64,000 nucleotides of DNA from Lachnospiraceae bacterium (GTDB lineage: Bacteria > Bacillota > Clostridia > Lachnospirales > Lachnospiraceae), in contig WSLY01000012.1 in the NCBI GenBank assembly GCA_013316825.1, positions 1-64,000 of the forward strand. The letters are read 5' to 3'. Below the pieces are notes generated by a model. The model had not been told where the DNA came from, did not search any database, and was given only the letters and a program-made list of their open reading frames with translations. A program made the translations under genes and the position numbers. Positions 614 to 63,739 of the stretch are shown one piece after another. The stretch's first letter is position 1. Every line of letters starts with the position of its first letter.

Positions 614-3600
614 ATGTACAAAAAAGTATCTACGGATTTAAATTTTGTAGAAAGAGAAAAGCAGGTCGAGGCGTTTTGGAAGGAAAATGACATATTTAAA
701 AAGAGCATGGAGAGCCGGAAGGAAGGACCGGAGTATACCTTTTATGACGGACCGCCTACCGCGAACGGCAAACCTCATATCGGACATGTGCTGACCCGCG
801 TTATCAAGGATATGATTCCCAGATACCGTACCATGAAAGGGTATATGGTGCCGCGAAAGGCTGGCTGGGATACCCATGGGCTTCCGGTGGAAATCGAGGT
901 GGAAAAGCTGCTTGGGCTGGACGGCAAGGAGCAGATAGAAAATTACGGGCTGGAGCCTTTTATCAATAAGTGTAAGGAAAGTGTCTGGAAATATAAGGGC
1001 ATGTGGGAGGATTTCTCCGGTACCGTCGGTTTCTGGGCGGATATGGACAATCCCTACGTGACCTATCATGACGACTATATCGAGTCCGAGTGGTGGGCGC
1101 TTAAGGAAATCTGGGATAAAGGGCTGCTTTATAAGGGCTTTAAGATTGTGCCTTATTGTCCTCGCTGCGGCACGCCGCTTTCTTCTCAGGAAGTGGCGCA
1201 GGGCTACAAGGATGTAAAGGAACGATCCGCTGTGGCGCGTTTCAAGGTAAAGGGCGAGGATGCCTATATTCTGGCGTGGACGACGACGCCGTGGACGCTG
1301 CCCTCCAATGTGGCGCTCTGCGTCAATCCGACGGAAACCTATGCAAAGGTGAAGGCGGCGGACGGCTATACCTATTACATGGCGGAAGCGCTTCTTGACA
1401 CGGTTCTCGGCAGGCTTGGGAATGCAGAAGAGGGCGTAAAGGCATATGAAGTGCTGGAAACCATGCTGGGAAAAGCGTTGGAATATAAAGAGTACGAGCC
1501 GCTTTTTGACTGTGCGGCGGAAATTTGCAAAAAGCAGAATAAAAAAGCCCACTATGTAACTTGTGACAGTTATGTTACCTTGACGGACGGCACGGGCGTG
1601 GTACACATTGCGCCTGCGTTCGGTGAGGACGATGCCAAGGTAGGGCGTATCTATGACCTGCCCTTTGTACAGCTTGTGGACGGACAGGGAAATATGACGG
1701 CGGAGGCGCCCTTTGCAGGCACCTTTGTCAAAAAGGCGGACCCCATGATATTGAAAGCGCTGGAGGACGCGGGACTTTTGTTTGACGCGCCCAAATTTGA
1801 GCACAGCTATCCGCACTGCTGGCGCTGCGATACGCCGTTGATTTATTATGCAAGAGAGTCATGGTATATCAAAATGACCGACGTAAAAGAGGATTTGATA
1901 CGCAACAACAATACTATCAACTGGATTCCGGAGTCCATCGGCAAGGGACGCTTTGGGGATTGGCTGGAAAATATACAGGACTGGGCAATTTCCCGCAACC
2001 GTTACTGGGGTACGCCGCTCAATATCTGGGAGTGCGAGTGCGGATGCCAGTACTGTGTCGGAAGCCGCGAGGAGCTTGCGAAGATGAGCGGCAATCCGGA
2101 CGACGCGAAGGTAGAGCTGCACAGACCCTATATCGATGCCGTGACCATCAAATGTCCGGAGTGCGGTAAGGATATGCACAGAGTGCCGGAGGTTATCGAC
2201 TGCTGGTTTGATTCCGGCGCCATGCCTTTTGCACAGCATCACTATCCTTTTGAGAACAAGGAGCTGTTTGAAAAGCAATTTCCCGCACAGTTTATTTCGG
2301 AGGCGGTGGACCAGACAAGAGGCTGGTTCTATTCCCTGCTTGCAGAATCGACCCTGCTCTTCAACAAAGCGCCTTATGAGAATGTCATAGTACTGGGGCA
2401 TGTGCAGGACGAAAACGGGCAGAAGATGAGCAAGTCCAAAGGAAATGCGGTGGACCCGTTTGACGCGCTGGAAACCTATGGCGCAGATGCAATCCGCTGG
2501 TATTTCTACATCAATTCTGCGCCATGGCTGCCGAACCGTTTTCATGGCAGGGCAGTACAGGAAGGACAGCGCAAATTTATGGGCACGCTCTGGAATACCT
2601 ATGCGTTCTTTGTACTGTACGCTAATATAGATGATTTTGACGCGTCGAAGTATACGCTCGCCTACGATAAGCTTGCCGTTATGGATAAATGGCTGCTTTC
2701 CAAGCTGAACAGCGTTGTGGCAGAGGTAGACGGGGATTTGGAGAACTATCGGATTCCCGAAGCGGCAAGAGCGCTGCAGGATTTTGTGGATGATATGAGC
2801 AACTGGTATGTCAGAAGGAGCCGTGAGCGCTTTTGGGCAAAGGGTATGGAGCAGGATAAAATCAATGCGTACATGACGCTTTACACGGCGTTAGTTACCA
2901 TCAGCAAGGCAGCGGCGCCCATGATACCGTTTATGACGGAGGACATTTACCAGAATCTGGTGAGAAGCGTGGACACGGCGGCGCCGGAGAGTATACATTT
3001 GTGTGATTTCCCGAAGGCAGATACCGCTTTGATAGATAAGAAGCTGGAAGAGGATATGGAGACCGCGCTGAGGGCAGTGGTGATGGGACGCGCCTGCCGC
3101 AATACGGCAAATATCAAAAACCGGCAGCCGATAAGCACCATGTTTGTCAAGACAGAGCATGGGCTGACTGATTTTTATAAGGATATTATTGCAGAAGAGC
3201 TTAATGTGAAAGAAGTGCGGTTTACGGAGGACGTGCGGGAATTTACCTCCTATATCTTCAAACCCCAGCTTAAGACAGTCGGTCCCAAATACGGAAAGCT
3301 GCTCGGCAGTATCCAAAAAACACTTGCTTCCCTTGACGGCAATGCGGCGATGGATGAGCTGCGGGCACAGGGCGCGCTGAATTTTATGGCGGGAGACAGC
3401 AAGGTGGTGCTGGCGGAAGAAGATTTGCTGATTGAGATGACCCAGAAGGAGGGGTATGTGACGGAGAGTGACAACCGCATGACGGTGGTACTTGACACAA
3501 ACCTGACGGACGAACTGGTGGAGGAAGGCTTTGTGCTAGAGGTTATCAGCAAAATCCAGACCATGCGCAAGGAAGCTGACTTTGAGGTGACTGACCGTAT

Positions 3601-10822: not shown

Positions 10823-10887
10823 TTTAGCCCTCTGCCAATAAGATTAGGGTGTCAAAAGCCCCAATTCCAATAGGCGGAGGGCTAAAA
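10823..10887. repeat. 65-bp imperfect palindrome containing the GATTAGGGTGTCAAAAGCCCC core
   Basis: tttagccctctgcc ... ggcggagggctaaaa pair; the centre resembles the dispersed repeat core. Confidence 0.65.
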
Positions 10888-45923: not shown

Positions 45924-45958
45924 TAGGATTCGGGTGTCAAAATCCCTGTCCGAATCCT
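45924..45958. repeat. Dispersed hairpin repeat, short copy
   Basis: TAGGATTCGGGTGTCAAAATCCCTGTCCGAATCCT; 9-bp stem AGGATTCGG/CCGAATCCT. Confidence 0.8.
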
Positions 45959-46022
45959 GATGCGTTATAAGGTGTGAAAGGAATGCCTTGAAGGGTTTTT
46001 GGATAAAGATGTGGGAGTGCAG

Positions 46023-47267
46023 ATGAAAAAAGCGTTCGTCAGAATCATAAATTTAATATTGGTGATTGCAGTGGTGGGGATAATGACGATTCCTTCCGAG
46101 GCGACGACAGTAAAGGATATTCAGGACCAGATTAATCAGGATAACGCGGCATTAAATGAAATTAATGACGATATGCTGGCGCTGCAGGATGAACAGGACC
46201 TTTTGGAAGAGGAAATCTGCGATTTAGATGCGGAGCTTATCAATACGATGACGGTTATCGGCGGACTGGAGGAGGATATTGCCGCCAGTGAGGAAGCCAT
46301 TGCCGCAAAGGAGCAGGATATCTCGGCAAAGGAAGCGGATATCAGAACGACGCAGGGTTTGTATGAGGAGGCGCGCGAAAAGGAAGAGGCCCAGTACAAT
46401 GCCATGGTTGCGCGCATCCAGTATTTGTATGAAAACGGCGAGGGAGACTATTTGTCGGTTCTGTTTTCCGCGACAAGCTTCAGCGAGATACTGACGCTGC
46501 AGAGCTATATCGAGGCGGTTTATGCATATGACCAGAATATGCTTGCGGCGTATGAGGCGGCGCGTGAAGAAGTGAAGCTTCTCTGGGAAAGGCTGGAGGA
46601 GGAAAAGGCTTCTTTAGAAGAAGAGAAGGCTGCTTTAGAAGCGGAAAAATCAGTTTTGGAGGCAAACCGTGCGGAGATGGAAGCACAGGTGTCGTATCTG
46701 GACGGGCTTCTTGCCAGAAAGAAGCAGGAGTCTGCCAATTATGACGCGCAGATAGCCCGTATGCGGCAGGAAGCGAATGCGTTAAAAGTGAAAATCAGAC
46801 AGGAACAGGCAGAACTGAAAAAGATGGAGGAAGAAGCGCGCAGGCGTGCGGCGGCAGCCGCAGCAAACGGCAGCTACACGGTGTCAGCTTCCATTTCTGA
46901 TATTATTAACGGGGCGAGCGGCAGCGACTTGGGCAAACAGATTGCACGCTATGGATGTCAGTATATAGGCAATCCCTATGTATCCGGCGGCACCAGCCTG
47001 ACGAACGGGGCGGACTGTTCCGGTTTTACCTACCGCATTTATGCTGATTTCGGATATACAATACCCCGCACCTCTTACCAACAGCGGAGCGCCGGCACGG
47101 AGGTCAGCTATGAGAATGCGCAGCCCGGCGATTTGATCTGCTATGAAGGACATGTGGCAATGTATATTGGTGGCGGTTATATTGTACATGCAAGCAATGT
47201 CAAAACGGGGATTAAGGTAAGCAGGGCGACGTACAAGAAGATTTTGACGGTGCGCAGAATCATATAG
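46023..47267 (+). CDS. NlpC/P60 (C40) peptidase with N-terminal coiled coil
   Basis: Coiled coil, then GCQYIGNPYVSGGTSLTNGADCSGFTYRIYADFGYTIPRTS...GDLICYEGHVAMYIGGG. Confidence 0.93.
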   Translation: MKKAFVRIINLILVIAVVGIMTIPSEATTVKDIQDQINQDNAALNEINDDMLALQDEQDLLEEEICDLDAELINTMTVIGGLEEDIAASEEAIAAKEQDISAKEADIRTTQGLYEEAREKEEAQYNAMVARIQYLYENGEGDYLSVLFSATSFSEILTLQSYIEAVYAYDQNMLAAYEAAREEVKLLWERLEEEKASLEEEKAALEAEKSVLEANRAEMEAQVSYLDGLLARKKQESANYDAQIARMRQEANALKVKIRQEQAELKKMEEEARRRAAAAAANGSYTVSASISDIINGASGSDLGKQIARYGCQYIGNPYVSGGTSLTNGADCSGFTYRIYADFGYTIPRTSYQQRSAGTEVSYENAQPGDLICYEGHVAMYIGGGYIVHASNVKTGIKVSRATYKKILTVRRII

Positions 47268-47274
47268 GGGGATG

Positions 47275-47514
47275 TAGGATTCGGGTGTCAAAAGCCCTGA
47301 CTGAAGTTGCTTCATGTCAATTTGCCCAAACGTATTGGCGCGCTCTCCATTGCACCAAACATTCCAATGAGCCTCTAAAGCGAAAATCGTGTTCAGCAAA
47401 GGCTTCCACGATTTTTGAGTCTCATTTCCATGGTGCAAAAGTCGTTTGCACCAATACGTTTGTGCAAATTGACAAATAACATTTTCGGACAGGGCTTTTG
47501 ACGCCCGAATCCTA
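47275..47514. mobile_element. MITE-like foldback element of the dispersed repeat family
   Basis: Terminal inverted repeats 47275-47299 and 47490-47514 (24/25); internal gtcaatttgcccaaacgtattgg inverted at its other end; flanking direct repeat TATAGGGGGATG. Confidence 0.75.
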
Positions 47515-47592
47515 TAGGGGGATGCCGCGGAATGGAACGCCGTCAGCGGCGGGAGACGTGGCGCTTCCTATGAAAGACACAAGAAAAAACAG

Positions 47593-47622: not shown

Positions 47623-47630
47623 ACGGGCAT

Positions 47631-47704
47631 GGGGTCATAGCTCAGCTGGGATGAGCGTTCGCCTCACACGCGAGAGGTCATGGGTTCGAGCCCCATTGGC
47701 CCCA
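47631..47704 (+). tRNA. tRNA-Val (anticodon CAC), 3' CCA not encoded
   Basis: Full cloverleaf: acceptor GGGGTCA/TGGCCCC, anticodon loop CTCACAC, T arm ATGGG TTCGAGC CCCAT. Confidence 0.95.
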
Positions 47705-47895
47705 TTACGGACAGCAGATTTCCTTTGGATAAAAGGGAAATCCGCTGTTCTTTTTTTGCTGTCATGGAAATCATTCCACGACATGAAAAGGCCATTTCAC
47801 GGCAAATGCGTTGTTTCGGTGTTTTGGGCAGGATATAATGAAGTATCCGGTCGTCTTGCGGCGGTCGGTGTATGGTATTTATCGAGGTGACAAAG

Positions 47896-62352: not shown

Positions 62353-63384
62353 TTGAGAAAATTATTAAATACACTATACATTACCTCTAGTGATTATTAT
62401 CTCTCTTTGGATGGAGAAAATGTGGTGGTACTGCAGGGCAAAAAAGAAGTAGGAAGGCTGCCTCTGCACAATCTGGAAGCCATTGTAACATGTGGGTATG
62501 CGGGAGCGAGCCCTGCATTAATGGAGAAATGTGCTGCCAATAATATTTCTATGACATTTTTGTCTGTAACGGGTAAGTTTCGTGCTAAAGTAACCGGAAA
62601 AGCATATGGAAATATTTTGCTCAGACGGACACAATATCGAATGGCGGATAATGAAAAGCAGACTTTGCAGACTGCAAAAAACTTTATAATTGGAAAACTA
62701 TATAATGAGCGAAGTGTTATTAACCGAGCGATACGAGACTATGCGGAAAGGCTTGACACGGAAAAGCTGTGCAGGGTATCAGGACAGTTAAAAGAAATTC
62801 TACAAATGGCAAAAGAAGCAGAAAACATGGAATCATTAAGGGGATATGAGGGGGAAGCGGCTTCCCGGTATTTTTCTCAGTTTGACCAATTAATATTGCA
62901 GCAAAAAGAAGATTTTGTGTTTGATGTTCGAAATCGAAGGCCTCCGCTTGACAGAGTGAATGCATTGTTATCTTTTACTTATGCGTTGCTGACTGGTATG
63001 TGTGTGGCGGCATTGGAAACGGTAGGTCTGGACCCATATGCAGGCTTTCTGCATACGGATCGCCCCGGCAGGTGTTCTTTGGCGCTGGATTTGCTAGAGG
63101 AACTCAGGGCGCCATATGCGGACCGTTTTGTACTTTCCTGTATTAATAAGAAAGTGCTTGATTCGGCAGATTTTGAGCAAAAGGAAAATGGTGCTGTGCT
63201 TTTAAATGAATCAGGAAGAAAAAAGTATTTGACCGTATGGCAAAATAAAAAAACGGAGAAGTTGAAGCACCCTTATTTGCAGGAAAGTATCGAATGGGGG
63301 CTCGTACCGTATGTGCAGGCGCTTTTGTTGGCACGGTATATAAGAGGCGACTTAGACGGTTATCCTCCTTTTTTCTGGAAATAA
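62353..63384 (+). CDS. cas1: CRISPR-associated endonuclease Cas1 (TTG start)
   Basis: MRKLLNTLYITSSDYYLSLDGENVVV, ALETVGLDPYAGFLHTDRPGRCSLALDLLEELRAPYADRFVL. Confidence 0.97.
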   Translation: MRKLLNTLYITSSDYYLSLDGENVVVLQGKKEVGRLPLHNLEAIVTCGYAGASPALMEKCAANNISMTFLSVTGKFRAKVTGKAYGNILLRRTQYRMADNEKQTLQTAKNFIIGKLYNERSVINRAIRDYAERLDTEKLCRVSGQLKEILQMAKEAENMESLRGYEGEAASRYFSQFDQLILQQKEDFVFDVRNRRPPLDRVNALLSFTYALLTGMCVAALETVGLDPYAGFLHTDRPGRCSLALDLLEELRAPYADRFVLSCINKKVLDSADFEQKENGAVLLNESGRKKYLTVWQNKKTEKLKHPYLQESIEWGLVPYVQALLLARYIRGDLDGYPPFFWK

Positions 63385-63411: not shown

Positions 63412-63506
63412 TAGGATTCGGGTGCCAAAAGGTCTGGTGAAAATGTTAGTTGTCAATTTGACATCGTGTAACTCTAGTCAGGGCTTTTGACACCCAATCA
63501 ATATTA
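63412..63506. repeat. Dispersed foldback repeat, degenerate copy between cas1 and cas2
   Basis: taggattcgggtgccaaaagg...gaaaatgttagttgtcaatttg matches one arm of the 47275-47514 element; right end cagggcttttgacaccc. Confidence 0.75.
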
Positions 63507-63511
63507 GGTAA

Positions 63512-63701
63512 TTGCAAAACGCTAATTTGCCAGTCCCGAATTGTGCATGTGATATATTATTCCATAAGCAGACTAAAAAATGCCGGTCTTATGCCGTATC
63601 TTGGCATTACGCACTGCTGTGTTTTTTAGGAAGCGAAAGCGGGTCTGCGGTGGAATATATCACATGTACAATGACAACTGCATAATCACTACGTTTCGCA
63701 A
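63512..63701. repeat. Second foldback structure between cas1 and cas2
   Basis: ttgcaaaacg/cgtttcgcaa, attgtgcatgtgatatattattcca/tggaatatatcacatgtacaat and gcagac/gtctgc arms. Confidence 0.7.
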
Positions 63702-63739
63702 CCGCCTATAGGAATATAATACAGTGCGAGGAGGATGAT

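Follow-up and report, generated by a model that had tools for sequence, protein, structure and literature searches.

The described systems closest to the element reported here are the IS1182 family of insertion sequences, bacterial MITEs and foldback elements, and the REP and REPIN sequences with their RAYT partners. The RAYT is a Y1 HUH transposase, and single-strand Y1 transposition makes no target duplication. Within the IS1182 family, IS1272 is the best-studied member. It is reported to replace stem-loops and to leave no duplication (PMC5678879). Literature searches on elements such as the present one in Lachnospiraceae returned nothing. In this work, we describe a short palindromic element found in a 64,000-nucleotide stretch of Lachnospiraceae DNA (hereafter the window). 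It is a non-autonomous, transposase-less mobile element of a multicopy terminal inverted repeat family, and we consider it very probable that it represents a MITE built on IS1182-type ends, whose palindrome is closed by a conserved hairpin called tip A.

The original prediction described a MITE-like foldback element with imperfect 25-bp terminal inverted repeats, inserted at a stop codon between two identical sequences, and these structural features were recovered. The left terminal repeat, TAGGATTCGGGTGTCAAAAGCCCTG (47275-47299, plus strand), and the right one, CAGGGCTTTTGACGCCCGAATCCTA (47490-47514, minus strand), differ by one mismatch; the family consensus of this end class, named TIR1, read from GATT, is GATTMGGGTGTCAAAAGCCCT. 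The repeats form the outer parts of two foldback arms (47275-47341 and 47448-47514, both given on the plus strand) of 67 nt each, which are 84% complementary. Folded as single-stranded DNA, the segment reaches -72.9 kcal/mol compared with -32.3 kcal/mol after shuffling (z = -11.2), and none of 200 shuffles was as good. The left arm carries a subterminal box, TGTCAATTTG (47315-47324, plus strand), and the sequence of the right arm contains its match, CAAATTGACA (47465-47474, minus strand). Boxes of this kind (YGTCAATTTGCACA) are common to TIR1 elements bearing either of the two tips described below, and the box is a possible second transposase site, judging from its sequence. Tip A occupies 47349-47444 on the minus strand and is matched by covariance model R1 with 110.4 bits.

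The flanking direct repeat, TATAGGGGGATG, is exact at 47263-47274 and 47513-47524 (plus strand). Its left copy contains the TAG stop codon (47265-47267) of an NlpC/P60 (PcsB-type) peptidoglycan hydrolase gene (45999-47267 from a putative start, plus strand; PF00877, E 4e-20); as this stop codon is kept, the gene was not truncated by the insertion. The initial TA of the right copy also completes the right terminal repeat. Since these two bases belong to both repeats, the predicted length of 240 bp holds if the direct repeat is read as 10 bp (TAGGGGGATG), and becomes 238 bp (47275-47512) if it is read as 12 bp. Downstream lies the gene for tRNA-Val(CAC) (47630-47705, plus strand), just upstream of which the element had been placed. 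No transposase gene is present in the 240-bp element, and the sole long open reading frame across it is an antisense read-through.

The mobility of this segment is indicated by both its copy number and its absence from relatives. In the genome from which the window comes (2.37 Mb, 73% complete), there were 33 matches to the 25-bp end at up to 3 mismatches, against none for a reversed-pattern control, and five long copies of the element were found. A scan of public genomes with GATTMRGGTGTCAAAAGCCCT matched at least 80 loci, nearly all from Lachnospiraceae or its genera by record name, with some metagenome-assembled genomes labelled otherwise (e.g., ‘bacterium’, ‘Alistipes’, ‘Eubacterium’). In four relatives (G110, G112, G027, and G017; 86-87% identity), the junction between the NlpC/P60 gene and tRNA-Val lacks the element and retains the tRNA promoter-like stretch, which identifies the element as an insertion. 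The 12-mer has diverged in all four, and therefore the expected single-copy target cannot be read there letter for letter. Together with the duplications at other copies and a transposase-bearing element with the same ends, these results bear out the MITE reading, although the label ‘MITE-like’ overlooks the conserved, exchangeable hairpin tip.

The other copies have their own target duplications. Of 49 complete pairs of TIR1 ends, 18 are immediately flanked at GATT...AATC by an exact direct repeat of 7 bp, while mismatched flank pairings reached 7 bp in 0.4% of cases. In a wider TIR1 collection, 25 elements of 25 to 1,049 bp have an exact 7-bp duplication, and their target consensus is symmetric, TTTTC[YTAWTAR]GAAAA. 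Such symmetry could reflect insertion into stem-loops as in IS1272; this was rejected, as flanks of the same target are complementary at 2.40 of 8 positions compared with 3.28 for flanks of different targets. Because same-target flanks are no more complementary, the consensus is read as a symmetric sequence preference, not as a stem-loop requirement.

A partner for these ends was sought among the PF01609 and PF13751 transposases of carrier genomes. Most of them lack these ends; only one locus (L386/L405 in genome G426) has one, where GATTAGGGTGTCAAAAGG lies upstream of a decayed transposase with matches to DUF772 and DDE_Tnp_1_6 in its reading frames and a weak one to the NCBIfam IS1182 model. 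A search started from the 126 N-terminal residues of this transposase found relatives in 27 of 397 family genomes, and five loci start with a TIR1-type end (L423, L424, L425, L426, and L447; the first two are identical over the stretch shown). L426 carries an exact GATTAGGGTGTCAAAAGG on both sides, and L423-L425 each carry one on a single side. L426, from genome G490, is a 1,049-bp element flanked by the 7-bp duplication TTAATAG; its IS1182-like transposase has an internal deletion. The window’s own genome holds a decayed relative as well (L447, contig C24), in which GATTCGGGTGCCAAAAGG precedes a broken transposase, one fragment of which is 60% identical to L426 over 80 residues. The shared ends and 7-bp duplication tie the MITEs to an IS1182-type group. 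An intact transposase with these exact ends was found neither in the window’s own genome (73% complete) nor in the other genomes searched, and the best NCBIfam IS1182 score of the deleted or broken copies is 72.7 bits against an equivalog cut-off of 270; for this reason, the group is called IS1182-type, an assignment made from the sequences of deleted or decayed copies that stops short of calling the group a proven part of the IS1182 family. Two other candidates were set aside: a complete IS1182-type element (L391/L419), whose GTTGGGGTCAAAAG ends are related and not the same, and a 2.3-kb pair of terminal repeats (L223) with ordinary genes in its interior. At L395 (150-240, a position that corresponds to the one upstream of L441), a TIR1-like end is only a few bases away from the end of an IS1182-type element, ATGATGTTGGGGTCAAATAG, in a possible nested insertion.

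The flanking repeat had been predicted to be a target-site duplication. Such duplications are indeed expected of the family, but the family rule is 7 bp, and the 10-12 bp of the window copy are exceptional. Read as a TIR1 element, this copy has a 12-bp repeat that is separated from GATTC...GAATC by 3 bases on one side and 1 on the other. This departure in length and position would also suit a tandem duplication of local origin or a remnant left by an earlier insertion, as would the GAATC that precedes both copies of the direct repeat and extends it to an 18-mer with one mismatch. We regard such an origin as unlikely, as there is a second end class, TIR2 (TAGGTAATTGCGAAAC, with TAGG...CCTA ends), whose elements duplicate 9-13 bp, and the window copy can be read alternatively as [TAGGGGGATG]TAGG...CCTA[TAGGGGGATG], which fits the TIR2 rule with 10 bp on each side. 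Moreover, no direct repeat of at least 12 bp arose when flanks of different copies were cross-paired. The window copy may thus owe its repeat to a transposase other than that of its family and may, from its sequence, have been moved by the TIR2 transposase. One end class can reach a heavy load in a genome: the 4.1-Mb genome G370 contains 146 copies of TAGGTAATTGCGAAACT at up to 2 mismatches, among which elements of about 286 and about 334 bp recur.

The centre of the element is conserved to an extent that its arms are not. Tip A is a hairpin of about 97 nt with conserved unpaired bases, carried by elements with different arms and ends, and the central 74 nt of the window element are 75-100% identical to copies in other genera. 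Its covariance model found matches in 21 of 397 family genomes, representing 18 genera, often with 8-14 or more copies per genome; in this search, the best 10 candidates per genome were scored, so that a count of 10 means at least 10, and deeper scoring of one genome gave 14 copies. Of 292 genomes sampled across the class, only two had matches, both Lachnospiraceae. A 5.2-kb faecal scaffold recorded as ‘Bacteriophage sp.’ (MT840076.1) carries a tip-A element with its own long arms at 3095-3173; the record is unverified, its reading frames look bacterial, and it is probably not a phage. The plasmids searched gave no match. At another locus (L074, 1241-1406, minus strand), a TwoAYGGAY RNA (Rfam RF01731, 109 bits) adjoins a tip-A element. 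A second tip, tip B, has conserved loops of its own, including GCGARAGC.

All four combinations of two tips and two end classes occur. Tip A is joined to TIR1 in the window element and to TIR2 in G370 and G585, while tip B is joined to TIR1 in Anaerosporobacter, Anaerocolumna, and Anaerobium and to TIR2 in a 209-bp element of the window’s own genome. A centre that is conserved in numerous gut bacteria of one family, on elements with quite different ends, is unusual. It could mean that the tips are self-serving modules, DNA hairpins recognised by a protein in folded form that move between end systems whose different transposases duplicate 7 bp or 9-13 bp, and that are thereby maintained in Lachnospiraceae without dependence on a particular insertion sequence; we offer this reading tentatively, as a possibility that is rather unlikely.

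A simpler view would deny the arms and the tip any function, so that the likeness of the tips reflects recent spread and the pairing reflects correction by template switching only. Template switching at quasi-palindromes is known to cause mutations and homogenises inverted-repeat arms (PMC7202029, PMC8604942), and the arm data fit it well. The arms within one copy are about 0.9 complementary despite divergence between copies, and in four genomes (G426, G290, G301, and G392) the between-copy arm identity is 0.57-0.66; these copy-specific arms are not random host sequence but mostly drifted homologues, given 0.57 in G426 against 0.47 for random sequence. Homogenisation explains the mutual complementarity of the arms but not the survival of the loops. 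In the same four genomes, the tips are 0.83-0.90 alike, and the range for tips within genomes whose arms drop as low as 0.57-0.66 is 0.83-0.97. Several unpaired positions of the tip show no or almost no variation across many genera, whereas pure homogenisation should erase internal loops. As the loops have survived, a function is inferred for the tip, and a purely functionless element appears improbable.

If the tip has a function, it might be that of an RNA hairpin (a small RNA or an RNA-binding site) spread by the MITE as cargo. The conservation of unpaired bases and the covariation of the stems are compatible with this: among 26 aligned tips, changes on both sides were found in 24 of 30 pairs, and 96.4% of alignment cells are paired, compared with 82.5% when shuffled and 33-42% when slid. 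The minus-strand internal loops are also purine-rich (GGA/GGA, GA/GAA), and tip B contains a GNRA-like side hairpin. However, an RNA selected as a transcript should tolerate G-U over A-C on one strand, and the counts were 89 G-T to 122 A-C in the aligned arms of about 80 copies and 8 to 7 in the 26 tips, unlike the acceptor stems of 11 tRNAs at the same loci (7 to 0, a small control). As G-T does not exceed A-C, the pairing of arms and tips looks DNA-level, not RNA-level, with either the DNA hairpin selected or one arm copied onto the other, although selection on RNA would likewise leave a low G-T count in copies that had recently been homogenised as DNA. Searches of Rfam at gathering and loose thresholds gave a credible family for neither tip and no family above threshold; a MIR8562 match on L072 was rejected as a long AT-rich stem. 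Furthermore, RNA cargo needs no long complementary arms with copy-specific sequence. An RNA role is consequently a quite unlikely explanation of the tip.

Five sizes of very short element, 25, 26, 30, 36, and 42 bp, carry intact 7-bp duplications. They look like a left end that continues, at a short repeat (e.g., CCTGA in GATTCAGGTGTCAAAAGCCCTGAATC), into the final few bases of the right end. This suggests that the hairpin was deleted by strand slippage after insertion; alternatively, they may be directly transposed micro-elements. In their co-occurrence in one genome, short intergenic palindromes of 25-42 bp and larger paired hairpins recall the REP singlets and REPINs (PMC3116915). It is nevertheless extremely improbable that a RAYT moves the present palindromes in hairpin form, given that the flush 7-bp duplications point to a DDE enzyme and that the transposase with matching ends is of the IS1182 type, which is likewise DDE.

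Further elements of this kind lie within the window. A 30-bp scar-like palindrome, GATTCGGGTGTCAAAATCCCTGTCCGAATC (45927-45956), begins 4 bases past the stop codon of the asparaginyl-tRNA synthetase gene, and short TIR1 palindromes are located near gene ends at 543-567 and 10842-10861, the latter inside a larger inverted repeat, TTTAGCCCTCTGCC / GGCGGAGGGCTAAA. A short TIR1 element (63415-63500) and a tip-B element (63505-63708), the TAGGTAATTGC ends of which have diverged, lie back to back between cas1-like (62353-63384) and cas2-like (from 63740) genes, named from their reading frames.

In the mechanism that we favour, that of a MITE on IS1182-type ends, a transposase acting in trans would recognise GATTMGGGTGTCAAAAGCCC and its inverted copy, would prefer TTTTC[YTAWTAR]GAAAA targets, and would normally leave 7 bp. 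Between the ends, the element is one long palindrome closed by the conserved mismatched hairpin, tip A. The tip would be selected as folded DNA, either a cruciform or a single-strand hairpin, that is bound by the transposase or a host factor or that protects the palindrome. During replication, one arm would be copied onto the other by template switching, so that complementarity is kept while the sequence drifts. Old copies would be reduced to scars of 25-42 bp when strand slippage between short repeats of the ends deletes the hairpin, and tips would pass between end classes by recombination or by insertion of one hairpin into another. Family membership, insertion at the site, the ends and duplication shared with the IS1182-type group, and conservation of the tip are the steps that the sequences support, while selection of the tip as folded DNA, arm homogenisation, scar formation, and the exchange of tips between end classes are proposed steps that we infer from them.

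Descriptions of bacterial MITEs usually rest on their ends. In the present case, it is the centre that is conserved, apparently as a DNA structure, in many genera and with at least two transposition systems. As some carriers hold many copies per genome, they constitute a natural data set on how long palindromes are protected in bacterial chromosomes, and they allow one to ask whether template switching keeps arms complementary and whether a hairpin module changes its transposase. Some unexplained short intergenic palindromes may have originated as 25-42 bp scars of this kind, in which the duplications are intact.

Among known systems, the IS1182 family is linked to the element by GATTMGGGTGTCAAAAG ends upstream of IS1182-like transposase genes (L386/L423/L424, L425, L426, and the decayed L447) and by the 7-bp duplication that L426 shares with the MITE group. 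In contrast to members of that family, the window element is gene-free and a near-perfect palindrome with a conserved tip; unlike IS1272, the MITE group duplicates 7 bp, and its targets are no more self-complementary than chance flank pairings. With bacterial MITEs and foldback elements, it shares short length, lack of coding sequence, multiple copies, terminal inverted repeats, target duplications, and empty sites in relatives, but its conserved central hairpin is shared by many genera and by two or more unrelated end classes, and its family’s arms vary between copies while remaining complementary within each copy. The REP/REPIN sequences with RAYT, also intergenic hairpin-forming palindromes that occur solo and paired, are the nearest analogue in appearance, not in mechanism: the window family has target duplications, a DDE-type partner, and full-length units of 209-276 bp in most groups, and its scars seem to be deletion products.
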